Assembly: GCA_001306305.2 (NCBI GenBank)
Contig: CP155577.1
Coordinates: 1,595,501 to 1,659,500, forward strand
Direction of reading: 5' to 3'
Source: Citromicrobium bathyomarinum
Lineage (GTDB): Bacteria; Pseudomonadota; Alphaproteobacteria; Sphingomonadales; Sphingomonadaceae
Length of the DNA stretch: 64,000 bases
Shown: positions 34,219 to 49,777 of the stretch, one piece after another
Layout: every line of letters begins with the position of its first letter
Position numbering within the stretch: the stretch's first letter is position 1
Translations under genes and position numbers: made by a program
Notes under the pieces: generated by a model
Told to the model about the DNA's origin: nothing
Seen by the model: only the letters and a program-made list of their open reading frames with translations
Databases searched by the model: none

Positions 34219-34242
34219 CGTCACCCCGGACTTGATCCGGGG
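34219..34242. repeat. REP half-element and left target-site duplication of the casposon
   Basis: CGTCA followed by the 19-bp palindromic sequence CCCCGGACTTGATCCGGGG (34224-34242). The same 19 bp recurs directly at 47809-47827 on the other side of the element. Removing everything between the two copies restores a normal REP doublet ending at 47888. Confidence 0.85.
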
Positions 34243-34282
34243 GGTATAGTGATAGCTCCAGATTGGCCAACATTTGACCACA
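34239..34282 (+). repeat. Casposon terminal inverted repeat, left
   Basis: GGGGGGTATAGTGATAG (34239-34255), 17 variable bases, then TTTGACCACA (34273-34282). The right end has the same two blocks, inverted, with identical 17-base spacing. Confidence 0.9.
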
Positions 34283-34350
34283 CTTTGCTTCGTCCGTCGG
34301 TAGAGTTAGCATCCCGGCGCGACACGCCACTCTGTAGATGGATAGATCAG

Positions 34351-34584
34351 ATGAGTTTCGATTATCATCGCGCGATGACCGATGCTGTAGTTGAAGCGCC
34401 GAAAGTGCCTCATGAACATCTCGTTTGGATCATGACCCCTGACCATCGCGCCAGATATCGACAGTTTCTCGAATTTGAGATGGGTGTCGAGCCTGACGAT
34501 GGTGAGTCATTCGGTATTCCGATTATGGATGGCGAACCTAGGGACGGTCAGCCATTCGAACTGGTCATCAGATCGCCGGATTAA
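34351..34584 (+). CDS. Small hypothetical protein at the casposon left end
   Basis: 77 aa from ATG 34351, acidic, no membrane segment (MSFDYHRAMTDAVVEA, then EHLVWIMTPDHRARYRQFLEFEMG). The reading frame is open further upstream into the TIR, but no Shine-Dalgarno-supported start lies there. I do not recognise it. It may be a real cargo gene or a remnant. Confidence 0.4.
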   Translation: MSFDYHRAMTDAVVEAPKVPHEHLVWIMTPDHRARYRQFLEFEMGVEPDDGESFGIPIMDGEPRDGQPFELVIRSPD

Positions 34585-34610
34585 TCGAACGTCGGCGTCC
34601 CTACCTATCC

Positions 34611-35033
34611 TCAAAATTGCTGTTGAGGGAAACCCGAAAACTTATGACGCTCACATTGACCAAACGCCTGCGGTTCTTTGCCGTAGCCTCGTCGAACGAT
34701 CCAGAACTGTGAGGTATATCGATCAATCGATATCGACCAGCGATCTGAGTCATCCCTTGTGCGAAGCGAAAGCTTGATCTCTGCGTCAGTCTGCTCGTCG
34801 ATTGTCCACGCAGCGGCGCAGTCTTCAAGGCACCACTTCGATTGGCTGAGATCAAATCGGAAGCGGATCGTCTCTTCCGCTTGAGAGGTACAGACCAGAT
34901 CAAACGCTGTTTGAGGCTGAAGGGAAATATCGTCGGCACCGCACCCCATCAATAATCCAGCCAAAAGTAGCACTCTGCATCCCTTGAGAGGTGATTGTTC
35001 TGGAAGCTGGTCGGGCTCGTGATTGGCAGACAT
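34611..35033 (-). CDS. Putative lipoprotein of unknown function, casposon cargo
   Basis: 140 aa. From Met 35033 there is an unusually long polar stretch (about 17 residues) before the hydrophobic CRVLLLAGLLMGC segment, which has a lipobox. The mature part has TAFDLVCTSQAEETIRFRFDLSQSKWCLEDC and later ISIDRYTSQFWIVR, a pattern I associate with small sphingomonad hypothetical proteins. It is convergent with the 77-aa gene and divergent from the XRE gene. The start is uncertain. Confidence 0.5.
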   Translation of the reverse strand: MSANHEPDQLPEQSPLKGCRVLLLAGLLMGCGADDISLQPQTAFDLVCTSQAEETIRFRFDLSQSKWCLEDCAAAWTIDEQTDAEIKLSLRTRDDSDRWSISIDRYTSQFWIVRRGYGKEPQAFGQCERHKFSGFPQQQF

Positions 35034-35143
35034 GATATCTCGGCTCTCGCAATTTACCTGAGGAAGCCATGCTCTCATGCAAGCGTTAATATGATGGATA
35101 TATCCAGTGGTTTTAATGCAGGGATTTCCCGCTTTAAGCCGCT

Positions 35144-35404
35144 ATGCGAGGCCGCGAACTTGTGGGGAAAAACATCAAACGTCTTCGGGTGGCGCAAGGC
35201 ATTTCGCAGGAGCAACTGGCGTTCGATGCATCGATAGATCGGTCTTTCCTCGGCGGCATCGAGCGCTGCGACGAGAACCCGAGTGTGGATACGCTAGACA
35301 AGATCGCATCCGTCCTATCGGTCAATATCGCTGAGCTTTTTGTACCGACCGCTGTGCACGAGAATATCTCGGGCTTGCGTCCCGGCAGGAAAAAGCAGTC
35401 CTAA
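35144..35404 (+). CDS. XRE-family helix-turn-helix regulator
   Basis: 86 aa. A complete HTH_3 domain: VGKNIKRLRVAQGISQEQLAFDASIDRSFLGGIERCDENPSVDTLDKIASVLSV (about residues 7-62), similar in size to phage repressors and restriction-modification control proteins. Its TAA stop is also the 3-bp target duplication of the adjacent IS copy. In the ancestral arrangement this gene was convergent with cas1, their stop codons overlapping, so it is a natural full-length gene and not one truncated by the IS. Confidence 0.85.
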   Translation: MRGRELVGKNIKRLRVAQGISQEQLAFDASIDRSFLGGIERCDENPSVDTLDKIASVLSVNIAELFVPTAVHENISGLRPGRKKQS

Positions 35405-36359
35405 GAGCCTGACTCAGAAGTTTATGCGATCTGGCAGTGGCTTGCGATGAGGCGGGTGAGGCGGCGGATGTGGGCGATGGTAGTCCATGCGGTGGAACTT
35501 TCGATAGTTCTTTCCCAGTCCTTTGCGAGCCGTCGACATCTGCCGAGCCAGGCGAAGGTGCGCTCGACCACCCAGCGGCGCGGGAGCAGAACAAAGCCCC
35601 TGGCGGTGTCGCAGCGGCGCACGATCTCGAGCGTCCATTGCCCATGCCCTTGAAGCGCGCCGATGAGCTTGTCGCCTGCGTAGCCCCCATCGGCGAAGAG
35701 GTGGCGCAGCCACGGGAAGCGGTAGCGGATTGCCTTGATGAGATCGACCGCCCCGTCGCGATCCTGAATGCTGGCAGCGTGGATGGTGACGAACAACATC
35801 AGTCCGAGCGTATCGGTGATGATGTGACGCTTGCGTCCCATGATCTTCTTGCCCGCATCGTAGCCCCGTGGGCCGCCACTCTCGGTGGTCTTGACGCTCT
35901 GGCTATCGATCACCCCGGCGCTGGGGCTGGCCTCGCGCCCTTCGATCTGGCGCGCAGCCATCACCAGCAGGTGATTGATCGTCTGCCATAGGCCGCTGTC
36001 GCGCCAGGCATAGAAATAGCGTTGAACCGTCGAGAGCGGAGGGAAATCCTTGGGCAGCATCCGCCATTGGCAACCGCTTGTTGCCAGATAGAGGATCGCG
36101 TTCATCACCTCGCGCAGGTCGGCGCAGCGCGGCCTGCCGCCAGGTTTCGCGGGCGGCAACAGAGGCTCGATCAAGGCCCACTCGGCATCGCGCAAATCGC
36201 TTGGATAACGTAGACCCGGGCGGCTATGCTGCTGCCGGGAGGTATCGGTCCACATCGCTTATTCCTCGGTCGTTTCTGGCGAAACCCCGGAATCAGCGAT
36301 GCACCAGCGCGTCAAGCGCAACCAGCTGATATCTCCCAACTACTTTTGAAGACAGGCTC
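35405..36359 (-). mobile_element. IS5-family insertion sequence, copy 1
   Basis: 955 bp bounded by imperfect inverted ends: GAGCCTGTCTTCAAAAGT at the transposase 5' side and GAGCCTGACTCAGAAGT at the 3' side. Flanking triplets are TAA (35402-35404) on the left and TTA (36360-36362) on the right, which do not match as a duplication. Copy 2 shows the reciprocal mismatch, the trace of an inversion between them. Confidence 0.92.
35422..36255 (-). CDS. IS5-family DDE transposase (copy 1)
   Basis: 277 aa, complete. N-terminal DUF4096-like region (LRDAEWALIEPLLPPAKPGGRPRC) and a DDE nuclease: Asp117 in GVIDSQSVKTTE, Asp189 in LFADGGYAGDK, Glu231 in VVERTFAWLGRCRRLAKD, with the Y-x2-R-x3-E-x6-K pattern that marks IS4/IS5-type enzymes. 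The protein is identical in all four copies in this window, which indicates recent spread and a probably active source. Confidence 0.95.
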   Translation of the reverse strand: MWTDTSRQQHSRPGLRYPSDLRDAEWALIEPLLPPAKPGGRPRCADLREVMNAILYLATSGCQWRMLPKDFPPLSTVQRYFYAWRDSGLWQTINHLLVMAARQIEGREASPSAGVIDSQSVKTTESGGPRGYDAGKKIMGRKRHIITDTLGLMLFVTIHAASIQDRDGAVDLIKAIRYRFPWLRHLFADGGYAGDKLIGALQGHGQWTLEIVRRCDTARGFVLLPRRWVVERTFAWLGRCRRLAKDWERTIESSTAWTTIAHIRRLTRLIASHCQIA

Positions 36360-37358
36360 TTAAAGAGTGCTACATCTCTTGAAGATCTTAAGGATGGCAG
36401 CTATGAAAATACATGCTATAGGGCGTCAGATTTAAAGAGAGGTGATCTTGTAGAATTTAAGGTGCAGTTGTCTGCTTCTTGGATATTTCAAATAAGCACC
36501 ATGGTAGCAGAATTCTCTGAGATGTTCGACCAGAGTCCGACCATGTTTATGGAGTCCGTGAATTTTCTTGACCTTTATCAGGCAAAAAATGCGAACAAGA
36601 TCATTAGCAAGCTACTCGCAGGCCTTATTCCGGTTGATGGTGTTGTATCAGATTATGTTGTCATAGCTGACGGGGAGCAAAATTTAATTGTCCACCGCAA
36701 TGCTATATCCGGATTCCCAATAGAATGCAGCGAGCTTCGAATTGTCGGTGTAACCGAGCATCTAGCTTATTGGAAGGATATCCGAAGAGTTCTTTTTGCG
36801 GATAACGAGTTTACAATGCTTTGTAGGCTTTCGAAGTCGGGCATTCAAAACGATTGGAATCCTATTAAGGTAGCCGATATATTTCGTGACTTCGCGCCTG
36901 ATCTTGCGAGACAAATAGAGACATCAAGTAGGGCCGCAATGACGCAATCTGCGTCTAGTAAACGTGCAGACATGGTTGAACCAATAGCTGCCCAGCTCGC
37001 CCTTGCGCTCGCACGATATAAGGACCGTCTGCTTTCAGAAATCGCGCATGACGTGTCGGAAGAAGAGCTTGTTGCACTGGATCGGTCGATAGCAGCACTC
37101 TTACTCGAAAATACGTCCGCTGAAGGTCAGAGAGCCGCATTCGCAAAGGTGAAAGCCCTGATTGAAGTGTCGACTCGGCAGGAGATTGATCCTTCTGTCG
37201 ATTTCGATGCGCGGGAAGCTGTCCGGAAGAGTCTCGACTTACCGCTTTTTCCTCGGAGCCAGAACTTTGCCAATGAACCAAAAATTAATGAAAGTTCTGC
37301 ATTTGATGAAGAGCCTAAGAATCTTCTCGATGTAGAGGTAATTGCAATCTACTGGTAG
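36360..37358 (+). pseudogene. C-terminal fragment of the casposon AAA+ ATPase, displaced by inversion
   Basis: An open frame of 332 codons plus stop with no start of its own: it is open straight from the IS edge (codon TTA 36360-36362, then KSATSLEDLKDGSYENT). It continues exactly, in frame, the ATPase that is cut at 44466 on the other strand, once the 36361-43511 inversion is undone. The region is helical (QLALALARYKDRLLSEIAHDVSEEEL) with no domain I recognise, and AT-rich next to its neighbours. The stop overlaps the 3' end of the convergent polB by 44 bases. Confidence 0.8.
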
Positions 37359-40300
37359 CAGGGTTATCAGCCTTGGTTATGCAAGAGCGACGCTTCAGAA
37401 TATTGCGGCGAAGGTTCGACGGATCAACGCATAATTTTCTGGCTGCTTTCCGTAAGCCGGAATCCGCGATAAGCTTTTCGAGCTTTTCGAGCTGTTCACA
37501 TTCTCGTCGTTCCTTTCGGCGAAAATAGCGCGTTATTTTTTCCAGCTCCGATGCTTCGTGCCTCGCCTGCTGACTGGTGCAATCGGCATTCAGAAAATCT
37601 GAGAGTTTCTTAGCTGTGATCCCGGCATAAGTGGAAATTTGGTATGTGCTGAACACTTCGCACAGGCGCTTCAGTTCGCCTTGCAATTCGGCTGTCTGGT
37701 CGGGGTGCAACCCATAAAGAGGTTGCGCCGATGGATCGAAGCCAATGCTTGCCTGTCGCTCCAAATCGTTGGCTTCTTTCCCAATATGGACGGCACTGAC
37801 TGCACAAATGTGCCTTCTTTCAGTCTCGCCACTATCGCGAAAATTCCCGTTCAGAAACTTGTTTTCTGGCTGCAAATGATATTGCGCCATTGCTTGCGCG
37901 AAGGTTTTGAGCTTCTCAATAGGGACGAAATCGCCAGTTTCCCGGTCAAAGGCCTGATTAGCTGCTTTGGCGGGATCGGTTTCAAAGGGCGAAATGGGAG
38001 CGCAAGAAACCTTTTTCGCTTTCCGCTTTTGGCCCTCGATTCCCGATGTCGCTCCTACTTCAATCGAAGTTGCAAACAGCGCAGTCAGAAATCCAAATGG
38101 CTTCACCTGATCGCTGTAGTTTTTATCCTCATTAAAATGGTTGAACCACCGCAGCACGGTAGGAGAGGTCGCCGCGTATCTGCTGATTGCTGGCAATTGC
38201 AATGAAGGGTGAAAACCAAAATCGACTAATTCTGGCCGCTCGCTTCTAATCGCCCCGATAATGTTGAACCAAAGATCGTGCTGCCACAGCGAAATGCCCA
38301 TCTCGGCAAATTTCGCCTTCGGTTTGGGTATCGAACGCGACGGATTTCGCTCGTCATAGGGCGCGCGCAAATGTCCCAAGCCATGCGCGGAGGCTTTGCG
38401 AATGATCGGCATTTCATCATCGCCGCGATTGTAGAGAGCATATCGCTTCGCGGAGATCGCTAGGCAGTATAGCTGCTCGTGTCTGCCGCTACTATCCGTA
38501 GCAAAATTGACGCCTTCGCTCTTCAGGATCGACCCTTCAAAATCGTACGGATTGAGTGCGCCAAACCAATCGATGATTTCTTGCACCGCGCTTTGAAATC
38601 GCTCTTCGCCCATGCGCCTAGGCTTTGCCAAAGCCATGCTGTCGGTATCGCAAAACGCCCATTCCAATCCACGCTCGATTGCTAGCTTCTCTGTGATCGC
38701 AAGCATTAGCCGCGCAGCTCCGGTGATGAGTGTCGCTAGGAGCGGGTGGAAGAAGGTGCCAGGTTCCTCGATCTTGGAAGGGAAGCTGGCGAAAGCATGC
38801 TCATCCCCGGCAAACACATCGACCCTTTCGTCGGCCTTTGCATTCTCGACATTCATCTCAACGAAAATGCCGTAGCTAGTGGCATTCGCCATGATTTTGA
38901 GAGCGTGCTGCCGGATGCCGAGCATCGCTCTTTCATCGGGCTTGGCTTGTTCAAGCTTCGCCTTTGTATCCTGTCTAAGCTCAATCAGGCGTTTGTAGAA
39001 ATCGTCTCGCTTGGGGTGGATCGAGTAAGCCGCATTGCCACCGACGTCGAAGCCACTGAGCTTTGCTTGCGTGCCGGATTGCCTGAATTCGATTGCCTCA
39101 ATGACGTTGGGAGGTTTGCCAGAAAGCAAGGTGGAGGCAAGACAGTCGGCAAGCGTGAACCACTGACCGCGCTCATTGGTTAAATAGTTTAGGCCGATGG
39201 TGGCCTGCTGCGCATCGGCATACTTCGCTCTGACAGGGAAGATATCGCCTACCGGAATGACCCGGACGAGGATCGTAAGTCCTCTCCAAAACTGCGTGCA
39301 CCGAAGCTCGCTGAGAATGTCCCCCAACAAGATCGCTTTAGCTTTCTCTGTCGCGTCATGAACTTCGACTCCCTCCGAAGTTACGAACGACCAAAGACCC
39401 ATGAGGGTGCAAACAGTCGGATACATCGATAGGAAATCGCAGAGCATCACTTGGCGCTCTTCGCGTCTAATGTGCACTTCCGAGCGTCCGCCATAATAGG
39501 CTGACATGACTTTGCCGATGATCGCCGGATCAAAATCAGGCTGGCATTCGCGCCAAGGTTTCACGCCCATCGCTTTCAAGCAAGCCTTTCCCAGACTCGC
39601 TTCGCTGTAGATTTTCTCTGGCGATGTGCCCGCTAATGCAAGCTGATCGAAACGCTCAATCAGCTCGCAATAGCACTCCCAAGTCGCTTGAACGTCGCGC
39701 AAAGCGTAGCCGATAAAATCATCCGATATCGGCGCTTCGAAATCGGAATATTCGATTTTGCTGTTCTCGACGCCCAACGCCTCACAAAGCGAGGCGAGCG
39801 AAAATGATCTAGCGAGCAAGGCATTCGCCAGTGTTTTGCAATCGATGAAATGACCTCGCTGGATTGGCTCCCTCTTACCAAGCTTGACCCTGCTCCGATT
39901 GGTTCGGCTCTTCATTGGGGCCGCAAACTGGATGAAGGCAGCCTTGGCGGAAATGTGTTTGACCTGAAGATTGGGGCGGCGCTTATCCTCGCTTAGCGTG
40001 AAAGAGAATCCGCCCTTCATCTTGCCGCGAGCTGAGCTGGATTTGATCGCTATTCGCGAGATATCGAAAGGCAAATTGAAGCCGACAATCGTACCGCGAT
40101 AATCGTATCCAATCGTAAAAAGGATGGCTTCGACAAATTCGGTCTGCGTTAGGCATTCGAGATGATTCTCGTCGGCGTAACTTCTGATTTGCGCAAGCTC
40201 GGCTCGTGTCACATTCTCCGGCGCATAAAACAGCCCTTGTTCCATCAGCGCACCCGATTGTCTGATCTGGTATGCGCCAAAGCGAAGAGATTGCGCCGGA

Positions 40301-40452
40301 TCGACCCGCGTTTCGCAATCGAAGATCAGATGCCATTCCGAGGCCTCGATTTCTGATCTCTTGTGGCTTCGCGATGGCCCGCTCCGATTGTCGGCTCGCA
40401 CGGCATAAGCGCGGAGAGAGATAGGCAGCTCATCGGTGACTGGGATCGTCAT
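37315..40452 (-). CDS. polB: Casposon family B DNA polymerase
   Basis: 1045 aa. The 3'-5' exonuclease motifs are intact: ExoI FDCET (Asp45, Glu47), ExoII GFNLPFD (Asn126, Asp130), ExoIII YALRD (Tyr249, Asp253). Then the YYGGR linker motif (319-323) and polymerase motifs A (DFLSMYP 339-345), B (KIMANATSYG 519-528) and C (CDTDS 601-605, Cys where Tyr-Gly is usual). The C-terminal part after about residue 900 is extra and ends in an HTH-like segment, GLRKAARKLCVDPSNLRRNI. The start overlaps the HNH stop by 4 bases. The likely role is copying the excised element. Confidence 0.93.
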   Translation of the reverse strand: MTIPVTDELPISLRAYAVRADNRSGPSRSHKRSEIEASEWHLIFDCETRVDPAQSLRFGAYQIRQSGALMEQGLFYAPENVTRAELAQIRSYADENHLECLTQTEFVEAILFTIGYDYRGTIVGFNLPFDISRIAIKSSSARGKMKGGFSFTLSEDKRRPNLQVKHISAKAAFIQFAAPMKSRTNRSRVKLGKREPIQRGHFIDCKTLANALLARSFSLASLCEALGVENSKIEYSDFEAPISDDFIGYALRDVQATWECYCELIERFDQLALAGTSPEKIYSEASLGKACLKAMGVKPWRECQPDFDPAIIGKVMSAYYGGRSEVHIRREERQVMLCDFLSMYPTVCTLMGLWSFVTSEGVEVHDATEKAKAILLGDILSELRCTQFWRGLTILVRVIPVGDIFPVRAKYADAQQATIGLNYLTNERGQWFTLADCLASTLLSGKPPNVIEAIEFRQSGTQAKLSGFDVGGNAAYSIHPKRDDFYKRLIELRQDTKAKLEQAKPDERAMLGIRQHALKIMANATSYGIFVEMNVENAKADERVDVFAGDEHAFASFPSKIEEPGTFFHPLLATLITGAARLMLAITEKLAIERGLEWAFCDTDSMALAKPRRMGEERFQSAVQEIIDWFGALNPYDFEGSILKSEGVNFATDSSGRHEQLYCLAISAKRYALYNRGDDEMPIIRKASAHGLGHLRAPYDERNPSRSIPKPKAKFAEMGISLWQHDLWFNIIGAIRSERPELVDFGFHPSLQLPAISRYAATSPTVLRWFNHFNEDKNYSDQVKPFGFLTALFATSIEVGATSGIEGQKRKAKKVSCAPISPFETDPAKAANQAFDRETGDFVPIEKLKTFAQAMAQYHLQPENKFLNGNFRDSGETERRHICAVSAVHIGKEANDLERQASIGFDPSAQPLYGLHPDQTAELQGELKRLCEVFSTYQISTYAGITAKKLSDFLNADCTSQQARHEASELEKITRYFRRKERRECEQLEKLEKLIADSGLRKAARKLCVDPSNLRRNILKRRSCITKADNPATSRLQLPLHREDS

Positions 40453-40829
40453 TTCCCGCGCCTCCGACCGGCATCCTGTTCGGCGAGGCCGATAAGGACG
40501 TGCGCAAACTCCTTGAGTTTCTCGACAATGATTTCGAGCAAGTCAGCAAGACCGAGGAGGAAGTGCCCGATACGGTCTAGATCGGGATCGGAACTCGCAT
40601 CGTAACTGGGATGGTCCTTTTGCGCATCGCTCAGCTTCCTGTGGCAATTGGCGCAAACGATAACCGTGGCTTCATCGCGCCCAAAATCCGCGACGTGATG
40701 GGCCTCCAAACATTGCCAAGCGTTTTCGCCGCAAGCGCCGCAAATCGGGTTATTGCTTCCAAGCTTTTTCAGCCGCTGTTGCTTGCGCCGCTCTCGATCA
40801 TGTCGCGTCATATTCGGACCTCGCTTCAA
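40449..40829 (-). CDS. HNH endonuclease, casposon
   Basis: 126 aa. HNH core with zinc knuckle: CGACGENAWQCLEAHHVADFGRDEATVIVCANCHRKL (two CxxC pairs, His-His pair, final CxxCH). The N-terminus is basic (TRHDRERRKQQRLKKL). The start overlaps the upstream HTH gene stop, and its own stop overlaps the polB start, each by 4 bases (ATGA), so HTH, HNH and PolB are translationally coupled. HNH genes are frequent casposon companions. Confidence 0.88.
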   Translation of the reverse strand: MKRGPNMTRHDRERRKQQRLKKLGSNNPICGACGENAWQCLEAHHVADFGRDEATVIVCANCHRKLSDAQKDHPSYDASSDPDLDRIGHFLLGLADLLEIIVEKLKEFAHVLIGLAEQDAGRRRGK

Positions 40830-41401
40830 TCGGTGACAAGACGATAGATGTCTTCGAAGATCTCGCTGCCCGAAGCAGCAAGGTGATAAAGGGTGTTTGG
40901 GTCGGTCTCTAAGGGGTGCTCATGGCCCGCCGTGTCGCGCACTGATTTGCCGACGAATCCGGATAAAAGATCGGCATCATTGGAATTGATGAAGGCTTTG
41001 ACGGCAGCGAGATACCTGCCGTTGAGAGAGGCTTGCTCCAATCCCGCAAGCTTTCTGGTTCGTGCCTCGCCGCTCGATATCACAAGCATCTGGCGTGTGG
41101 CTGGGTCAGAGATGATCCAAGTCTTACCCTTTCGGGTCGCGAGCTTATTTTCTCGAAGGAAGCGCCTGAAGCGCTCGACCGAAACCCCAGCCTCTTTTGC
41201 GGCGGCAACCTGTGTCCCGGTTCGTCTCAGAGCTTTGAGCGCGGCTTCGAGGGAGGCTTCACCTCGCTCTAACTTCGATCCTCGGATCGGGCGCTCGCCA
41301 GCACGGGCATGACCTCGCGCCTGAGCGCGGCTCAGGCCTCGCTTCTTCGCGTTCGCTATGCGTCGTGCGTATTCCGCCTTGTAATCGCGTTTGCGTACCA
41401 A
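40826..41401 (-). CDS. HTH protein, first gene of the casposon polB operon
   Basis: 191 aa, probably starting at TTG 41401 with GGGAA upstream; no ATG fits better. Basic N-terminus (KRDYKAEYARRIANAKKRGLSRAQARGHARAGE), then an HTH (LRRTGTQVAAAKEAGVSVERFRRFLRENKL) and a C-terminal domain (SLNGRYLAAVKAFINSNDADLL). It is divergent from the MerR-like gene, and a perfect inverted repeat lies between them. Confidence 0.75.
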   Translation of the reverse strand: MVRKRDYKAEYARRIANAKKRGLSRAQARGHARAGERPIRGSKLERGEASLEAALKALRRTGTQVAAAKEAGVSVERFRRFLRENKLATRKGKTWIISDPATRQMLVISSGEARTRKLAGLEQASLNGRYLAAVKAFINSNDADLLSGFVGKSVRDTAGHEHPLETDPNTLYHLAASGSEIFEDIYRLVTD

Positions 41402-41407
41402 TTGAGT

Positions 41408-41430
41408 GTTCCCGGATTAGTGCCGGGAAC
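41408..41430. promoter_or_regulatory. Operator-like inverted repeat between divergent casposon regulator genes
   Basis: GTTCCCGG-7-CCGGGAAC, perfect 8-bp arms (41408-41415, 41423-41430). It lies 7 bases from the start of the polB operon and 68 bases from the MerR-like/cas1 operon, so one regulator could switch both. A second inverted pair, TCTCGCA (41458-41464) and TGCGAGA (41481-41487), lies in the leader of the rightward operon and touches its ribosome binding site. Confidence 0.6.
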
Positions 41431-41497
41431 TCTATTGGAATCAGTTTCCGAGTCCGTTCTCGCAAAAAGAGACGCATCTGTGCGAGAGGAGCAGGTG

Positions 41498-42388
41498 ATG
41501 CAGATCACGAACACAGAGCTGGCCGACCTACTCAACAGTGAATTCGGGTTCGTTGGTCGAAATGCCATTACTGCGAATGTGGTGCGGCAGTGGGTAGATT
41601 GGGACGTTCTACCGCGTGCTCAGGCCCAAGGACAGAGAGTTGGTAACGCACCGAGTTGGGCACGATCAGACTCTGACGTGCGGAAGGCGAGGCGTTTGGC
41701 AGAGCTGAGGCGAATGGGCCTCAAGCGAGAAAATGCATTGGTAGTTCAGACCTATATCGAATGGGGTCATCAAGACTTTGATCGAGTGCGCGTCGCTTTT
41801 GCGGCAGAGTGGAGAAAAGCTAGTTCTCAACTGGCCCGCCGTCAGTCCACGTTCCTGAATGACAGGACATTCACGGAAGTGAGTGCAGCAAGCAAGAAGG
41901 CAATCGCAAATCAGCTTGGCCCGCTAGATCATCGCCTACAGGGAACGCGGTTCGAGCAGTCTCAAGAATTCTATGCGGTTATGGCAGAGATTGGGCGAAG
42001 CGGCGCTAACTCAAAGCTACCCTCGGATGAGCTGATCGCCAAAGCGCTCGATCATATGGCCCCAAGGGTGTCGCCATTATTGAACCCACTTTGGATCGAG
42101 GCGATTGGCAAGGTGCTGAGTGGTATAGCTGGATTGCCCGATGAGATCGAAAATTCGGGCATTGAGGCAATCCAAAATGCGAATAAGCGAGATTTCAGAG
42201 TTGCCCGATATCATGTGAGGCTATTTCGAAAAGCGGTCAAAGGGCAACTGCCAAATCGAGATATTCAAAGCGCGCTTGAAAGCGAGCCTACGTTTCAAAA
42301 GCTCCGTGAGCTTGGCCCTCAGATATTGAACGTTCCGTGGGTCATTTTGCCATTCATTCAGGCATTAAAATACGAAATCCCAAACTAG
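41498..42388 (+). CDS. MerR-like HTH protein upstream of cas1
   Basis: 296 aa from ATG 41498, 6 bases after AGGAG. The N-terminal about 90 residues look like a winged helix of the MerR type: TNTELADLLNSEFGF, ITANVVRQWVDWDVLPRA, then SDSDVRKARRLAELRRMGLKRENALVV. The remaining 200 residues are helical with no recognised domain. It ends 20 bases before the open cas1 frame and so forms an operon with it; a regulator or DNA-end-binding partner of the casposase are both possible. Confidence 0.65.
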   Translation: MQITNTELADLLNSEFGFVGRNAITANVVRQWVDWDVLPRAQAQGQRVGNAPSWARSDSDVRKARRLAELRRMGLKRENALVVQTYIEWGHQDFDRVRVAFAAEWRKASSQLARRQSTFLNDRTFTEVSAASKKAIANQLGPLDHRLQGTRFEQSQEFYAVMAEIGRSGANSKLPSDELIAKALDHMAPRVSPLLNPLWIEAIGKVLSGIAGLPDEIENSGIEAIQNANKRDFRVARYHVRLFRKAVKGQLPNRDIQSALESEPTFQKLRELGPQILNVPWVILPFIQALKYEIPN

Positions 42389-42408
42389 GTCAGTAGGCTG
42401 AAAAATAG

Positions 42409-43511
42409 CGCATAATTCGGGAATTTTGCTATATCGAATTTATCGATTTAGAGCCTGAAATTTATCTCGATGCGAACACCGAAAATTGGGCAAATCGCTC
42501 GGAATTCTGGTTTTCCGAGGCGGCCAAATCCGCGCCAAACCGAAAATTACGAGAGCGAAATCCCGCACCGCTAGTTTTAAATGGACATGGCGTCTCATTG
42601 CGAATTGCGCATGGGGCACTGGTCATCCGCGATGGCTTTACCCATTATCCGCAAAAGCGAGCCGAGTATCGCTTTTTCCCTCGCGACCTCGATTTGCCAT
42701 CACGCATCTTATTGCTTGATGGCAGCGGAACTCTCTCGTTCCAGGTTCTGACTTGGCTAGCGGAGCAAAGCGTTGCGCTTGCTCGCGTCAATGCGAGTGG
42801 AGAGATTGCGACGTTGCTAGCGGAAGAGGATATGCCGCTGATCGGGAAAAGGTCGATTGGCAATTGGCCATGCGCGCTGACTTATCGAAGCGATCGGCAT
42901 TCGCGGCTGATCTCATTCGCCGGAAAATCATTTCGAGCATCCCTACGCTTGAGGTTCACATCCCGCCTTCAAAATCGCGCGATATGGCGTTGGCAAAAGC
43001 AAATGCTGCTATTGATCGGTTGGAAAGCGAGAGCTTCGAAGATTTGAACGCCATATTCGCTATCGAGGGCGAATGCGCGTCAGCCTATTTTCGGGCTTGG
43101 CAGGGTTTGCCTGTGAATTGGAGAGGGATCGTGCGTCGTCCTGTTCCCCAAGAATGGCACGCTTACAATTGGCGAAGTTCTCGTGCCACTGGCAAGAAGG
43201 CCGAAAACCGAAACGCCTCACATCCTGTCAATGCCATGTTGAATTATGCCTATGCGGTGAAGCTAGCAAAGCTACAGCTTGAAGCCATCGCAGATGGGTA
43301 TGATCCGACCATTGGCATTATGCACAATAGTAAGCGCGGAAGCCCTGCTTGGGCGCTCGATATGATTGAGCTTGAACGCGCCTCTGTCGATGCACGGATT
43401 TTGGAGTTTGTGGCGGATCAGAGGTTCGCGGCGGCAGACTTCATTCTGAAGAAGAATGGCGGTTGCAGGCTATCGCCTCAACTTGCGCGGATGGTTGCCT
43501 CGCTTGCTTAG
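42409..43511 (+). pseudogene. cas1: Cas1-type integrase (casposase) gene, split by a frameshift
   Basis: Frame A, open from 42409, holds the N-terminal half: EPEIYLDANTENWANRSEFW, LVLNGHGVSLRIAHGALVIR, FTHYPQKRAEYRFF, LPSRILLLDGSGTLSFQVL. Frame B, one base back, holds the rest to 43511: GYAADREKVDWQLAMRAD, the catalytic Glu in FAIEGECASAYFRAWQG, NRNASHPVNAMLNYAYAV, and the catalytic His and Asp in IGIMHNSKRGSPAWALDMIE. The break lies between 42805 and 42828 and equals a 1-base loss. No ATG, GTG or TTG precedes the conserved N-terminus in frame A. Either a recent pseudogene, a sequencing error or recoding; no slippery heptamer is evident. The stop is natural in the ancestral order. Confidence 0.85.
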
Positions 43512-44465
43512 AGCCTGTCTTCAAAAGTAGTTGGGAGATATCAGCTGGTTGCGCTTGACGCGCTGGTGCATCGCTGATTCCGGGGTTTCGCCAGAAACGA
43601 CCGAGGAATAAGCGATGTGGACCGATACCTCCCGGCAGCAGCATAGCCGCCCGGGTCTACGTTATCCAAGCGATTTGCGCGATGCCGAGTGGGCCTTGAT
43701 CGAGCCTCTGTTGCCGCCCGCGAAACCTGGCGGCAGGCCGCGCTGCGCCGACCTGCGCGAGGTGATGAACGCGATCCTCTATCTGGCAACAAGCGGTTGC
43801 CAATGGCGGATGCTGCCCAAGGATTTCCCTCCGCTCTCGACGGTTCAACGCTATTTCTATGCCTGGCGCGACAGCGGCCTATGGCAGACGATCAATCACC
43901 TGCTGGTGATGGCTGCGCGCCAGATCGAAGGGCGCGAGGCCAGCCCCAGCGCCGGGGTGATCGATAGCCAGAGCGTCAAGACCACCGAGAGTGGCGGCCC
44001 ACGGGGCTACGATGCGGGCAAGAAGATCATGGGACGCAAGCGTCACATCATCACCGATACGCTCGGACTGATGTTGTTCGTCACCATCCACGCTGCCAGC
44101 ATTCAGGATCGCGACGGGGCGGTCGATCTCATCAAGGCAATCCGCTACCGCTTCCCGTGGCTGCGCCACCTCTTCGCCGATGGGGGCTACGCAGGCGACA
44201 AGCTCATCGGCGCGCTTCAAGGGCATGGGCAATGGACGCTCGAGATCGTGCGCCGCTGCGACACCGCCAGGGGCTTTGTTCTGCTCCCGCGCCGCTGGGT
44301 GGTCGAGCGCACCTTCGCCTGGCTCGGCAGATGTCGACGGCTCGCAAAGGACTGGGAAAGAACTATCGAAAGTTCCACCGCATGGACTACCATCGCCCAC
44401 ATCCGCCGCCTCACCCGCCTCATCGCAAGCCACTGCCAGATCGCATAAACTTCTGAGTCAGGCTC
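43511..44465 (+). mobile_element. IS5-family insertion sequence, copy 2 (opposite orientation)
   Basis: 955 bp, same ends as copy 1. Flanks are TTA (43508-43510) and TAA (44466-44468), the mirror image of copy 1. It originally inserted in the AAA+ ATPase gene. Confidence 0.92.
43615..44448 (+). CDS. IS5-family DDE transposase (copy 2)
   Basis: 277 aa, identical to copy 1, with Asp117, Asp189 and Glu231 intact. Confidence 0.95.
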   Translation: MWTDTSRQQHSRPGLRYPSDLRDAEWALIEPLLPPAKPGGRPRCADLREVMNAILYLATSGCQWRMLPKDFPPLSTVQRYFYAWRDSGLWQTINHLLVMAARQIEGREASPSAGVIDSQSVKTTESGGPRGYDAGKKIMGRKRHIITDTLGLMLFVTIHAASIQDRDGAVDLIKAIRYRFPWLRHLFADGGYAGDKLIGALQGHGQWTLEIVRRCDTARGFVLLPRRWVVERTFAWLGRCRRLAKDWERTIESSTAWTTIAHIRRLTRLIASHCQIA

Positions 44466-45459
44466 TAAGAGTGGCAGTCCATCGGAACACCGTATCGTTC
44501 GAGTTCCAATTTTTAAGATTTCATACCGATCCATGAGGTCCGGCAATCCGAATTCAATTTCCCAATCGAAGCGTCCGGGACGGGTCAAAGCCGGGTCCAG
44601 CGCGTCCGCTCGGTTTGTCGCGGCGATTACCACCGTTGCATTCTTACTCGTATCGAAGCCATCCATAAGCGTCAGGAATTGGGCTACCAGACGACGAGAA
44701 GATTCCTGCGAATCTCCGCTTCGATTTTCTGCGATGCTATCAATCTCATCGAAGAAGATTATGGCTTTCCCACTATCGGCGCTCTTGGCATGCTCAAAGA
44801 TTTTGCGGAGTAATTCCTCGGTATCACCGAGCCATTTGCTCACGATGGCGGGGCCACTAATGTCGTAGAAGCTTGCGCCAGCTTGATTGGCGATAATGCG
44901 AGCGAGGTGTGTCTTACCTGTGCCGGGCGGACCGGTGAATAGGATTCCCTTCACTGGTCGCGCGCCGATTTTTTCGAGTTCATCACGCCGTTCGAGCTGT
45001 GTTTCAATTAGTTCCTTTGCCCGCGCGACTACGCCTTTGTAACCTCCGAAATCGTCAAACGTTAGGCCGCCCTCTCTTGGCTCTACCATGAACGAGGAAG
45101 GCGAAAGAACGTCGTCCGCGGGGTGCAGACGAGCCCTTATCGGCTCTTTCGCGATCACCCGGACAATCGCTGAAGTTGTGTTGTCTACCTCGACGGTGAA
45201 ATCGGCTTCCAAATCCAGTTCGCCCGGATTACGCAAGACGACCAGTGCGCCACCAGACTCACCAAGAATTGTGCCATCATCGAGAATCGATCTTATGATG
45301 CAAGTTGCAAATGTGTCGGGCCAAACTTCGTGCGGGACTTTCGTCCACTTGCCATCATAGGACAAGATGACATCATTCTTTTTGAAGGTGTGCAGCTCAT
45401 CTACCCGGACACGACCTGTCTTCCCGTTCGGATATCTGAAGAAGATGAAATCTGTTTCA
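44466..45459 (-). pseudogene. Central fragment of the casposon AAA+ ATPase
   Basis: This piece carries the ATPase core: FDDFGGYKGVVARAKELIETQL, Walker A GPPGTGKTHLARIIANQAG, SKWLGDTEELLRKIFEHAK, Walker B AIIFFDEIDS, and sensor/Arg-finger VVIAATNRADALDPALTRPGRFD, as in the classic AAA clade (Cdc48/proteasome-ATPase-like). It is cut on both sides by IS copies 2 and 3, and currently reads into IS copy 2 at its 3' end. Joined to 46415-46479 and 36363-37358, counting each target duplication once, it gives 2052 bases = 683 aa plus stop without a frame break. Confidence 0.85.
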
Positions 45460-46414
45460 GAGCCTGACTCAGAAGTTTATGCGATCTGGCAGTGGCTTGC
45501 GATGAGGCGGGTGAGGCGGCGGATGTGGGCGATGGTAGTCCATGCGGTGGAACTTTCGATAGTTCTTTCCCAGTCCTTTGCGAGCCGTCGACATCTGCCG
45601 AGCCAGGCGAAGGTGCGCTCGACCACCCAGCGGCGCGGGAGCAGAACAAAGCCCCTGGCGGTGTCGCAGCGGCGCACGATCTCGAGCGTCCATTGCCCAT
45701 GCCCTTGAAGCGCGCCGATGAGCTTGTCGCCTGCGTAGCCCCCATCGGCGAAGAGGTGGCGCAGCCACGGGAAGCGGTAGCGGATTGCCTTGATGAGATC
45801 GACCGCCCCGTCGCGATCCTGAATGCTGGCAGCGTGGATGGTGACGAACAACATCAGTCCGAGCGTATCGGTGATGATGTGACGCTTGCGTCCCATGATC
45901 TTCTTGCCCGCATCGTAGCCCCGTGGGCCGCCACTCTCGGTGGTCTTGACGCTCTGGCTATCGATCACCCCGGCGCTGGGGCTGGCCTCGCGCCCTTCGA
46001 TCTGGCGCGCAGCCATCACCAGCAGGTGATTGATCGTCTGCCATAGGCCGCTGTCGCGCCAGGCATAGAAATAGCGTTGAACCGTCGAGAGCGGAGGGAA
46101 ATCCTTGGGCAGCATCCGCCATTGGCAACCGCTTGTTGCCAGATAGAGGATCGCGTTCATCACCTCGCGCAGGTCGGCGCAGCGCGGCCTGCCGCCAGGT
46201 TTCGCGGGCGGCAACAGAGGCTCGATCAAGGCCCACTCGGCATCGCGCAAATCGCTTGGATAACGTAGACCCGGGCGGCTATGCTGCTGCCGGGAGGTAT
46301 CGGTCCACATCGCTTATTCCTCGGTCGTTTCTGGCGAAACCCCGGAATCAGCGATGCACCAGCGCGTCAAGCGCAACCAGCTGATATCTCCCAACTACTT
46401 TTGAAGACAGGCTC
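45460..46414 (-). mobile_element. IS5-family insertion sequence, copy 3
   Basis: 955 bp with a perfect 3-bp target duplication TCA (45457-45459 and 46415-46417). It lies in the 5' part of the AAA+ ATPase gene, after about 22 codons. Confidence 0.95.
45477..46310 (-). CDS. IS5-family DDE transposase (copy 3)
   Basis: 277 aa, identical to copy 1. Confidence 0.95.
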   Translation of the reverse strand: MWTDTSRQQHSRPGLRYPSDLRDAEWALIEPLLPPAKPGGRPRCADLREVMNAILYLATSGCQWRMLPKDFPPLSTVQRYFYAWRDSGLWQTINHLLVMAARQIEGREASPSAGVIDSQSVKTTESGGPRGYDAGKKIMGRKRHIITDTLGLMLFVTIHAASIQDRDGAVDLIKAIRYRFPWLRHLFADGGYAGDKLIGALQGHGQWTLEIVRRCDTARGFVLLPRRWVVERTFAWLGRCRRLAKDWERTIESSTAWTTIAHIRRLTRLIASHCQIA

Positions 46415-46479
46415 TCAGGCTCAATATGAACGATCTTTAGAAGATCACCGAGTGTTTCGTCGTCGGCATACTGGCTCAT
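46415..46479 (-). pseudogene. N-terminal fragment of the casposon AAA+ ATPase
   Basis: ATG 46479 opens MSQYADDETLGDLLKIVHIEP and reaches the IS copy 3 duplication. Past the IS the frame resumes as ETDFIFFRYPNGKTGRVRVD and runs into the AAA core, so this is the true start of the ATPase. The start has no strong ribosome binding site. Confidence 0.75.
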
Positions 46480-46654
46480 TCGGGAAGGTTACAGGCAACT
46501 CAGCAGAGGCAGAAGGCCTTGCGGCAGAATAAGAGTGGAGAATGGGTATCGAGTTTGCCGACCAAGGAGAACCTGACCAGAGCGTAAGACCTGCGTACAA
46601 GTGCGTCTAGCGACGGACCTATGACTGGCAATCTCGAAAGGCTATGATTCGCGC
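46480..46654. other. Divergent promoter region between AAA+ ATPase and 346-aa cargo gene
   Basis: 175 bases that must hold both promoters. I see only a 22-codon ATG frame (46542-46610) with no family likeness, and no clear repeat. Confidence 0.35.
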
Positions 46655-47695
46655 ATGACCTCTGACGCGAAATCTATTGGAAAGGCAGCGATTGGCCGGA
46701 TGCGGAATGCCGCAGGCAGTGCGACCATACCCCCAGAATGCGGAAGCATCGTCGCGATAAAGATCATCGACGACCGCATGTTTATGCTTTCGCAGCGGTG
46801 TCTAACCTCCGGTGTATTCGCCGACCACATTGATCCAGATCGGACAAATCCAAATCTACCACAGATTATTCAACAGAAAGAATTAGAGTTCGGGGCCGAC
46901 CATCATTTTGTTCGCAAGACTGCGGGCGCGGCATTCGAACTTGCTGATGCCACGTATCTACCTGAGACTGTGCCTCCCGACGCATTGCTCCGTATGTCGC
47001 TAGAGGTATCGAGTTCAATGGCGTCAGTCGTTGAGGTGGCAAACGACCTGAGCAGTCATCAGGATCAGATGAGAGAGGCCAGCAAAGCTCAAAAGCTCTC
47101 GGCTGCATACGTACCTCGCACACCGAACCTCAAGGGCAAGGTACGCCAGAGCCTCGCGGCGCTGCGTGATGTTGAGATCGCAATTAAAGGATTGACCACG
47201 CTATTTTTCCCCAAGGGCTCGAACAATGAACCTTGGGATGCGAAATTCTTGCAAGCAATGACGGAAAAGCACGGCGAGAATGCGGAACTTGATGCTTGGA
47301 AAAATGCAGCTTGGGAGGTCTTGGCGGGCGTCGCAAATCATCGACACGCGATGATCCATCCAAACGAAAATAAGTGTGTGATAATACGCGATTATGAGCT
47401 TCAGGCTGACGGTTCACTCCTAGCTCCCACTATCGAAATCACTCATGAGGCAAGCGCGGTGACAAGGCGTGATGTGGTTCAGTTCCTCGAGACCCAAGTC
47501 GGGGACCTCGCAGAGGTGTTTGAAGCCATACTCGGCTATGTATGCGATCTAAAAGTGCGCACCGTTATTCCGCAATTCGAATCCCATGTCGTAGCGCTTC
47601 CGAACGGCGAAACGCAGCGCGGCTCTCACATGGTCTGGAGGACAATCGCGAAGGAAGGGGCGCCTTTCGGAGGTCCGAAGGCGAACGCCGATTGA
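46655..47695 (+). CDS. 346-aa cargo protein of unknown function, casposon right end
   Basis: Soluble, mixed alpha/beta sequence without signal peptide or membrane helix. Notable parts: ECGSIVAIKIIDDRMFMLSQRC, a helical middle (SSSMASVVEVANDLSSHQDQMREASKAQKLS), and VLAGVANHRHAMIHPNENKCVIIRDYEL. The last resembles a short His-Asn cluster but I cannot place it in a family. It is divergent from the AAA+ ATPase; accessory ATPase-plus-unknown pairs are often anti-phage, which is inference only. Codon use is less GC-biased than the chromosome. It ends 73 bases before the right TIR. Confidence 0.65.
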   Translation: MTSDAKSIGKAAIGRMRNAAGSATIPPECGSIVAIKIIDDRMFMLSQRCLTSGVFADHIDPDRTNPNLPQIIQQKELEFGADHHFVRKTAGAAFELADATYLPETVPPDALLRMSLEVSSSMASVVEVANDLSSHQDQMREASKAQKLSAAYVPRTPNLKGKVRQSLAALRDVEIAIKGLTTLFFPKGSNNEPWDAKFLQAMTEKHGENAELDAWKNAAWEVLAGVANHRHAMIHPNENKCVIIRDYELQADGSLLAPTIEITHEASAVTRRDVVQFLETQVGDLAEVFEAILGYVCDLKVRTVIPQFESHVVALPNGETQRGSHMVWRTIAKEGAPFGGPKANAD

Positions 47696-47768
47696 GTCTC
47701 TGAGATTGTCAGAACTGGATGTTAGGACGATTGGGAAGCTTCTGTGGATTGCGAACTTCACTTCATTC

Positions 47769-47812
47769 TGTGGTCAAAACTTCCCTGTTTCAACACTATC
47801 ACTATACCCCCC
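47769..47812 (-). repeat. Casposon terminal inverted repeat, right
   Basis: Read on the minus strand: GGGGGGTATAGTGATAG (47812 to 47796), 17 variable bases, TTTGACCACA (47778 to 47769). Blocks and spacing equal those of the left end. Confidence 0.9.
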
Positions 47813-47888
47813 GGACTTGATCCGGGGTGGTGCTGCTTTTAGCGCGGCACCGAAGAAGCCCGATCCCGGATCAAAGCCCGGGATGACG
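47809..47888. repeat. REP doublet, including the right target-site duplication
   Basis: Starts with CCCCGGACTTGATCCGGGG (47809-47827, the duplicated 19 bp), then a spacer, then GATCCCGGATCAAAGCCCGGG and ATGACG. Its partner CGTCA end is on the far side of the casposon at 34219, so the element split this repeat. Confidence 0.85.
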
Positions 47889-48822: not shown

Positions 48823-49777
48823 GAGCCTGACTCAGAAGTTTATGCGATCTGGCAGTGGCTTGCGATGAGGCGGGTGAGGCGGCGGATGTGGGCGATGGTA
48901 GTCCATGCGGTGGAACTTTCGATAGTTCTTTCCCAGTCCTTTGCGAGCCGTCGACATCTGCCGAGCCAGGCGAAGGTGCGCTCGACCACCCAGCGGCGCG
49001 GGAGCAGAACAAAGCCCCTGGCGGTGTCGCAGCGGCGCACGATCTCGAGCGTCCATTGCCCATGCCCTTGAAGCGCGCCGATGAGCTTGTCGCCTGCGTA
49101 GCCCCCATCGGCGAAGAGGTGGCGCAGCCACGGGAAGCGGTAGCGGATTGCCTTGATGAGATCGACCGCCCCGTCGCGATCCTGAATGCTGGCAGCGTGG
49201 ATGGTGACGAACAACATCAGTCCGAGCGTATCGGTGATGATGTGACGCTTGCGTCCCATGATCTTCTTGCCCGCATCGTAGCCCCGTGGGCCGCCACTCT
49301 CGGTGGTCTTGACGCTCTGGCTATCGATCACCCCGGCGCTGGGGCTGGCCTCGCGCCCTTCGATCTGGCGCGCAGCCATCACCAGCAGGTGATTGATCGT
49401 CTGCCATAGGCCGCTGTCGCGCCAGGCATAGAAATAGCGTTGAACCGTCGAGAGCGGAGGGAAATCCTTGGGCAGCATCCGCCATTGGCAACCGCTTGTT
49501 GCCAGATAGAGGATCGCGTTCATCACCTCGCGCAGGTCGGCGCAGCGCGGCCTGCCGCCAGGTTTCGCGGGCGGCAACAGAGGCTCGATCAAGGCCCACT
49601 CGGCATCGCGCAAATCGCTTGGATAACGTAGACCCGGGCGGCTATGCTGCTGCCGGGAGGTATCGGTCCACATCGCTTATTCCTCGGTCGTTTCTGGCGA
49701 AACCCCGGAATCAGCGATGCACCAGCGCGTCAAGCGCAACCAGCTGATATCTCCCAACTACTTTTGAAGACAGGCTC
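48823..49777 (-). mobile_element. IS5-family insertion sequence, copy 4
   Basis: 955 bp with a perfect 3-bp duplication TAA (48820-48822, 49778-49780). It is outside the casposon and fixes the IS ends and the TNA target rule for the other copies. Confidence 0.95.
48840..49673 (-). CDS. IS5-family DDE transposase (copy 4)
   Basis: 277 aa, identical to copy 1. Confidence 0.95.
   Translation of the reverse strand: MWTDTSRQQHSRPGLRYPSDLRDAEWALIEPLLPPAKPGGRPRCADLREVMNAILYLATSGCQWRMLPKDFPPLSTVQRYFYAWRDSGLWQTINHLLVMAARQIEGREASPSAGVIDSQSVKTTESGGPRGYDAGKKIMGRKRHIITDTLGLMLFVTIHAASIQDRDGAVDLIKAIRYRFPWLRHLFADGGYAGDKLIGALQGHGQWTLEIVRRCDTARGFVLLPRRWVVERTFAWLGRCRRLAKDWERTIESSTAWTTIAHIRRLTRLIASHCQIA

Follow-up and report, generated by a model that had tools for sequence, protein, structure and literature searches.

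A probable casposon in decay in Citromicrobium bathyomarinum, and the hairpin palindromes duplicated around it and most of its resolved relatives

Casposons are the proposed source of the adaptation step of clustered regularly interspaced short palindromic repeats (CRISPR). The window analysed here, a stretch of 64,000 nucleotides from the chromosome of Citromicrobium bathyomarinum (contig CP155577.1), holds an island with a Cas1-type integrase gene, and this locus raises two questions: what moved the island, and what marked the place where it was inserted. The best explanation of the sequence comparisons is that positions 34243–47808 are an integrated, decaying casposon of the bacterial kind, which was moved by a Cas1 enzyme and inserted at the feet of a host hairpin with duplication of that hairpin. 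We assign this reading, taken jointly, a probability of about 0.85. The original prediction, made from the sequence alone, had called the island a casposon from its Cas1, family B DNA polymerase (PolB), HNH and helix-turn-helix (HTH) genes, terminal inverted repeats (TIRs) and flanking direct repeat. All of these were recovered, and an empty site in relatives was added to them.

The island and its empty site

The boundaries of the island are set by the TIRs, by the target site duplication (TSD) outside them, and by the occupancy of the site in related genomes. The TSD resembles a repetitive extragenic palindrome (REP), and the body includes insertion sequences (IS) of the IS5 family.

34243..47808, no strand: casposon body, bounded by TIR and TSD, with an empty site in relatives; 13.6 kb including three IS5 insertions
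34243..34255, plus strand: left TIR GGTATAGTGATAG, 13 bp, exact
47796..47808, minus strand: right TIR, CTATCACTATACC on the plus strand, the complement of the left TIR
34224..34242, plus strand: left TSD copy CCCCGGACTTGATCCGGGG, a REP-like hairpin palindrome; exact 19-bp direct repeat that folds as a hairpin
47809..47827, plus strand: right TSD copy, the same REP-like hairpin as on the left; exact 19-bp direct repeat

A casposase-type Cas1 and a PolB are encoded between the TIRs, a TSD and an empty site are present, and the element has no recombinase of its own. No serine, tyrosine or conserved DDE recombinase belonging to the casposon was found among the scanned products, where only the IS5 passengers appeared. 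The earlier statement that the island has no other recombinase must be amended to this extent, as three identical IS5-family copies lie inside it. Apart from the two ends of the element, the complete chromosome (3.30 Mb) contains no match to the end motif at fewer than two mismatches.

The empty-site comparison that had been proposed was made across eight genomes of the same genus, all of which contain the gene that had been called rmuC, and the site was empty in three of them (G005, G008 and G001). The joined flanks align across the junction in G005 (91% over 1040 bp) and in G008 (78%, up to base 403 of a 1016-base query), and in G001 they match as two blocks on either side of the junction at 92–93%. 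The five other genomes match the left flank only or parts of the flanks and are uninformative on occupancy. The empty site of G001 has the identical 19-bp palindrome as a single copy, whereas at that of G005 the palindrome has diverged and its loop contains an insert. The palindrome CCCCGGACTTGATCCGGGG is also repeated across the host genome, where it has 13 exact copies, the two flanks of the element included. The single palindrome at the empty site and the multicopy nature of this repeat therefore indicate that the element was inserted into a REP-like repeat and duplicated it.

Duplicated hairpin palindromes in related elements

Relatives were collected by a genome scan with a Cas1 alignment, which gave 134 relatives, and 80 loci of these were analysed. 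Element ends were sought without any palindrome requirement, as an inverted repeat of at least 8 bp accompanied on the outside by a direct repeat of 12 bp or more, or as TATA-anchored ends; extra flank was taken for six loci, five of which were resolved with limits of 7 and 11 bp. Both ends were obtained for 38 elements, namely the window element, that of G081 and those of 36 among the 80 loci, which include the elements of genomes G370, G314 and G045. Between the ends, Cas1 was present in all 38, PolB in 37, the HTH protein in 35 and the HNH protein in 34, the window being counted. The cas1 and PolB genes run in opposite directions in 35 of 37 elements, the exceptions being L084 and L085. An end sequence of this clade is given below, and TATAG was observed at both ends in 27 of the 31 elements of the hairpin class described below.

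Clade element end sequence: GGTATAGTGAT

The duplicated target was a GC-rich hairpin palindrome in 31 of the 38 resolved elements, with 29 distinct sequences, so that the junction anatomy of the window element recurs in 30 further elements. The remark in the original prediction that the REP target looked distinctive thus proved to be the valuable one. REP-like targets were seen for the window element, L042, L048, G081, L041, L075 and L076; copy number was counted for the window only, and sequence around the palindrome also matches repeatedly within the genomes of L048 and G081. Terminator-like targets with flanking A/T runs were seen for L053, L055, L058, L064, L069, L078, L084, L085 and L090. 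A bias in terminator orientation was considered by eye and dropped.

The excess of palindromes at the targets was evaluated with several measures. A centred palindrome of at least 8 pairs, with one mismatch allowed, was found in 23 of the 38 TSDs (the window TSD has 9 centred pairs), compared with 0.21 expected from windows outside open reading frames (ORFs) under a crude ORF call that places 13 of the 38 targets under an ORF (Fisher 2.7e-24). A perfect stem of at least 5 within the TSD extended by 4 bases on each side was present in 24 of 33 elements, against 3.2–3.3 expected. In a separate stem statistic, computed for 33 elements with none dropped, the excess at the TSDs had Fisher p values of 5e-32 with windows from the same loci and 8e-26 with GC-matched flank windows. 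The inner TSD positions 5–8 were paired at 0.590 in all 38 elements, compared with 0.322 when the right TSD halves were exchanged among elements, a value reached in 0 of 5000 permutations. Among the 32 members of the CC..GG class, which consists of the 31 hairpin elements and L051 and comprises 30 sequences, the corresponding values were 0.615 and 0.342 (0/5000). Pairing thus continues inside the CC and GG edges, and the palindromy therefore exceeds the edge motif. Folded as single-stranded DNA, four targets form hairpins of −8.2 to −9.2 kcal/mol, compared with −0.8 and −2.7 kcal/mol for the non-hairpin targets of L059 and L119.

Further sites were compared with unoccupied relatives. The flanks of the G081 site align across the junction in four of nine relatives at 71–75%, and for the Sphingopyxis site of L048 the left flank continues through one palindrome in G455 and G445, after which no casposon end follows. 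A one-ended junction scan that required a hairpin was run on the 49 loci then without both ends, and it gave matches in 16. Ten of these were taken as ends (L040, L046, L049, L050, L061, L065, L066, L067, L076 and L088), and L061, L066 and L076 were then confirmed by an exact repeat at the other end. The one-ended junctions of the remaining seven (L040, L046, L049, L050, L065, L067 and L088) are only suggestive of hairpin targeting. The motif matches in L056, L074, L096, L106, L113 and L117 were judged to be chance, and L074 is still without both ends. Separately, a casposon left end beside a short-stem hairpin was observed at L191:6632, on an IMG/VR contig classed as viral, in a scan that had no hairpin filter.

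A number of observations weigh against insertion at hairpin feet as a general rule. Both ends are lacking for 44 of the 80 loci, 39 of which have less than 9 kb of flank on one side and five of which do not. Seven of the 38 resolved elements (L051, L056, L059, L082, L118, L111 and L119) have no centred hairpin, and 8 of the 31 hairpin elements miss the strict centred measure: L041 and G081 have 7 centred pairs, and L043, L044, L060, L063, L068 and L071 have 2–5. The latter six score low because C/G runs blur the junction, and they have perfect stems of 5–9 within ±4 bases; L063 is weak by the looser measure as well (p 0.09). At the Sphingopyxis site of L048 the right flank of the relatives differs. 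The one-ended junctions provide no independent support because the scan demanded a hairpin, and an unfiltered look at seven loci gave one clear end without a centred hairpin, that of L047. This locus is a relative of L051 and has a near-identical site in the opposite orientation, and in L051 itself a strong hairpin overlaps the TSD off centre (both by eye). No palindrome was found at the targets of L111 and L119. The Eremiobacterota casposon L118 (L118:15593-15606) overlaps the 3' end of a tRNA-Ser gene, which resembles the sites reported for archaeal family 2 casposons.

The three remaining exceptions, the Hyphomicrobiales elements L056, L059 and L082, also count against the rule, as they lie directly upstream of recA (NCBIfam TIGR02012). 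L059 and L082 lie within a GAAC-A7-GAAC stretch, which we take to be like the alphaproteobacterial LexA (SOS) box, and L056 lies at A7-GAAC. A Cas1 tree of 74 rows was built by a quick method, with support from the Shimodaira–Hasegawa-like approximate likelihood ratio test (SH-aLRT) only. In this tree the Cas1 proteins of L056, L059 and L082 form one clade with L073, hairpin targeting, which covers 36 rows including five one-ended ones, requires 2 changes compared with 9.3 in shuffles, and the recA rows require 1. This distribution is consistent with a switch to the recA promoter within a clade that mostly targets hairpins.

Recognition of the target

The junctions suggest a mechanism in which the casposase would join the element, through its GG(TATAG) ends, to a short GC-rich host palindrome (a REP or an intrinsic terminator) at both feet of the latter. 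Gap repair would then place one whole hairpin on either side of the insert. The casposase, acting alone or with its HTH or HNH partners, may recognise the dyad or hairpin and not a fixed sequence, with CC and GG at the cut edges, and PolB would presumably copy the element. The feet of an extruded hairpin would be adjacent whatever the stem length, whereas a rigid duplex ruler would fix the length of the duplication. The duplications as called range in length from 14 to 24 bp, yet most keep the palindrome at their centre, which makes an extruded or single-stranded hairpin somewhat more likely as the recognised form than a duplex dyad in linear DNA. The stronger proposal, that this bacterial casposase clade reads the hairpin by its shape, almost regardless of sequence, and integrates at both feet, with the recA-promoter switch in a sub-clade, stands in our judgement at even odds.

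The alternative that survives best, and to which we give a serious though less than even chance, is that the casposase binds as a dimer to a linear, dyad-symmetric duplex with CC-N-GG half-sites, and that no hairpin is extruded. The edges of the targets speak for it: 28 of the 32 CC..GG members begin with CC and 27 end with GG, which makes a sequence component real and weighs against reading by shape. A CC dinucleotide in the target is also required by the casposase of A. boonei (PMC6614799; here and below, cited papers are represented by the parts of their text available to us). The pairing that extends inside the CC/GG edges counts against a duplex reader, although such a reader might want inner pairing too, and a dyad that is mostly centred in TSDs of 14–24 bp is not what a rigid duplex ruler predicts.

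It is unlikely that the pattern reflects survival, with near-random insertion and only those copies remaining that lie in harmless intergenic hairpins such as terminators and REPs. Such a bias would agree with the 25 of 38 targets that are intergenic by the crude ORF call, the other 13 lying under possibly spurious ORFs, and with the description of family 3 casposons as intergenic (PMC6614799). However, the centred palindromes remain at 23 of 38 against 0.21 even when compared with windows of the same loci outside ORFs, and the dyad is centred on the TSD and not just close by.

A still less probable alternative is that the hairpins are the element's own ends, as in IS200/IS605, and not host targets. 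In each element of the hairpin class a palindrome does stand next to the TIR at either end, but the idea was rejected, as it is contradicted by the empty site: G001 has one palindrome at the same place without the element, G455 and G445 have the left flank and one palindrome at the L048 site, close relatives carry different hairpins, and the hairpin of the window is a multicopy host repeat.

The least probable alternative, a remnant of a CRISPR-Cas adaptation locus, draws on a Cas1 domain just above the cut-off of the general CRISPR model TIGR00287 (75.3 vs 71.7 bits), and it was rejected on the casposase-type profile match and tree position, the presence of TIR, TSD and PolB, subtype Cas1 models that score far under their cut-offs, the absence of any second Cas1 found anywhere in the genome, and the lack of a Cas2 match among the scanned island products (small ORFs left out). 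The Cas1 profile and phylogeny that had been proposed as checks both side with the casposases. A profile of four Cas1 sequences had its best PDB match in the M. mazei casposase 6OPM (3e-26), followed by a CRISPR Cas1 (7e-17). In the tree, the window Cas1 nests among sphingomonad casposases, apart from seven same-order Cas1 sequences labelled as CRISPR (SH-aLRT 97); these labels were given by eye (two via a following Cas2-like frame), and one of the seven has a very long branch. No array was found among the repeats of the window.

The comparison with known systems places the element among the bacterial casposons. Family 3 was described in 2014 from Henriciella marina, Nitrosomonas sp. AL212, Streptomyces albulus and Ca. 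Acetothermum (Krupovic et al., PMC4046053). A casposon in an alphaproteobacterium, the headline of the original prediction, was therefore already listed, and the Henriciella relatives L068, L072, L075 and L078 share the large Cas1 clade of the window. As in family 3, the element is bacterial, it has Cas1, PolB, HNH and HTH between TIRs with a TSD, and it has no conserved transposase of its own. The family 3 traits of HNH and a conserved HTH protein, which that family is described as having in common with family 2, occur in 34/38 and 35/38 resolved elements, the HNH family match itself being weak. Family 3 Cas1 proteins are described as a sister clade of those of the other casposon families. 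We infer a family 3-type affiliation, on a tree without archaeal or H. marina casposases. The differences are that the available descriptions of family 3 mention intergenic sites only, whereas here the target is mostly a hairpin palindrome, with the recA promoter in a sub-clade; that the TIR of the window (13 bp) is shorter than the published casposon TIRs of 25–602 nt; and that the window copy is degraded. The window element is thus a further member of the known bacterial casposons, and its target rule looks new.

Published casposases of family 2, those of A. boonei and M. mazei, use the 3' ends of tRNA genes and give TSDs of 14–15 bp (PMC6614799, PMC6977970), and 6OPM is the M. mazei casposase-DNA complex (PMC6977970). 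The present clade resembles these enzymes in that a Cas1-type integrase makes the TSD, in the CC of the A. boonei target, and in the best profile match to 6OPM. It is unlike the family 2 casposons in its TSDs, which span 14–24 bp and are mostly palindromic. Insertion sequences that target REPs are known (PMC1525189) and set a precedent for REP palindromes as targets; they are not Cas1 elements, whereas the element here is, and its clade uses terminator-like as well as REP-like hairpins. A literature search for casposons together with repetitive extragenic palindromes or Rho-independent terminators found nothing; other wordings are possible, and supplementary tables and the 2016 casposon paper in Genome Biology and Evolution lay outside its coverage.

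In CRISPR, Cas1-Cas2 inserts the spacer at the two edges of a palindromic repeat, which is thereby duplicated in full, and Dyda and Hickman made a similar feet-of-hairpin argument for the CRISPR repeat (PMC4940900). Cas1 of S. islandicus prefers stem-loop DNA (PMC9456107). The casposon insertions resemble this process, as Cas1 insertion at both palindrome edges duplicates the entire repeat, and differ from it in that the inserted DNA is an element of 6–15 kb and what is duplicated is a hairpin of the host, the sequence of which varies. If the proposed reading holds, the geometry would be that of CRISPR repeat duplication without Cas2 or a dedicated array, and these elements would be living models for a Cas1 transposase that founds arrays of short palindromic repeats. 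Some thirty natural Cas1-driven insertions duplicate a whole palindrome, which makes it testable why the repeats of CRISPR are palindromic and how their duplication by Cas1 arose. They further provide a rule for predicting bacterial casposon sites (REPs, terminators and the recA promoter) and an example of a Cas1 integrase that may select its target by structure.

Genes, inversion and decay of the window copy

The genes and passengers of the window element are given below.

35144..35404, plus strand: XRE-type HTH protein (PF01381, 6e-12)
35405..36359, minus strand: IS5-family copy 1, passenger, flanks TAA/TTA; transposase NF033580, 1e-79
36462..37358, plus strand: DUF6414 protein, truncated at the N terminus near IS copy 1 (PF19952, 3e-24, profile positions 118-283 only)
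37315..40452, minus strand: family B DNA polymerase, 1045 aa (PF00136, 8e-6)
40449..40829, minus strand: HNH-type nuclease, 126 aa (PHROG HNH (phage) families, weak match, 1e-4)
40826..41401, minus strand: conserved HTH protein, 191 aa (weak HTH matches only, HTH_17)
41495..42388, plus strand: protein of unknown family, with homologues in L045 and L064
42450..43511, plus strand: cas1 (casposase), frameshifted; N-terminal limit approximate, set by eye
43511..44465, plus strand: IS5-family copy 2, passenger, flanks TTA/TAA
44469..45365, minus strand: AAA+ ATPase, CDC48-like, abutting IS copy 2 (PF00004, 2e-43; CDC48, 8e-63)
45460..46414, minus strand: IS5-family copy 3, passenger, flanks TCA/TCA
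46655..47695, plus strand: cargo protein of unknown family, 346 aa, with no significant family match

The XRE and AAA+ assignments of the original prediction agree with these profile matches (PF01381 and PF00004). Its 'MerR-like' label for 41495..42388 does not, as no MerR match was obtained in Pfam, NCBIfam or PHROGs. Over residues 10–899 of its 1045, the PolB shares 47% identity with its counterpart in the G045 casposon. The cas1 piece at 42753–43508 matches Pfam Cas_Cas1 at 1e-25, and its N-terminal part lies in a different frame, which reads as a single frameshift near 42.81–42.82 kb. Four relatives have intact cas1 as open frames of 364–382 aa. The columns E221, H307, D319 and E322 are invariant across 25 Cas1 sequences, and they are presumably catalytic.

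The three IS5-family copies are mutually identical, and copies 1 and 2 are inverted relative to each other. No IS5 copy was found in the other 37 resolved elements, and those of the window are therefore regarded as passengers. A fourth IS5-family transposase ORF with an identical translation lies just outside the element, at 48840–49673. Copies 1 and 2 probably inverted the casposon core between them (window 35405–44465). When this inversion is undone on paper, both copies are flanked by TAA/TAA, which is modest evidence since such targets vary little. The gene order of relatives points the same way. An XRE match is present in eight other resolved elements. In four of these (L041, L048, L076 and G081) its 3' end adjoins that of cas1, and in the remaining four it is placed elsewhere; the locus L054, which is without both ends, also has the two 3' ends facing each other. 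In L043, AAA+, DUF6414 and PolB are adjacent. The XRE/cas1 pair and the AAA+/DUF6414 pair are both split at IS copies in the window, and the gene order of the window is therefore most likely secondary. The gene order had been put forward as distinctive; as an original trait it was rejected, since the flanking triplets and the neighbour pairs of relatives favour an IS5-mediated inversion. The window copy is probably immobile now, because cas1 is frameshifted, IS5 copies were inserted and the core was apparently inverted.

Casposases of the window type (E <1e-50) were found in five genomes among the 396 covered for the order and in three among the 385 covered for the class, the genome of the window being counted in both. 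The class-wide search gave no new element, its matches in G729 and G959 being L086 and L074 by position. Among viral contigs, neither a first Cas1 scan nor a PolB scan brought up a relative; one contig, L191, came from a second Cas1 scan. Plasmids and phages contained no match to PolB. Cas1 matched 23 plasmid records, of which 22 bear the annotation CRISPR Cas1 (or Cas4/Cas1), the last being an unannotated Bradyrhizobium remnant. This casposase-like remnant lies on plasmid pBsp2S1b, typed as conjugative (L192:14001-14352). The Cas1 matches of L087 and L107 lie within very long open frames (968 and 725 aa) and are perhaps fusions.

Individual relatives showed further arrangements. At L049:10904-10928 a right casposon end, one hairpin and a left casposon end lie within 25 bases, as expected of two elements in tandem or of one in circular form; no second copy of the contig tail was found in the rest of the contig, and casposon-repeat-casposon junctions with exact end motifs occurred in 0 of 396 genomes of the order. 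The 6.3-kb element L090:9221-15484 has TIRs, a hairpin TSD and cas1 and no PolB, HNH or HTH match, and its remaining ORFs appear by eye to be of isochorismatase and glycosyltransferase type. Lastly, one Marinicauda salina genome has two casposons (L070 and L071) at two different hairpins, which suggests recent mobility.

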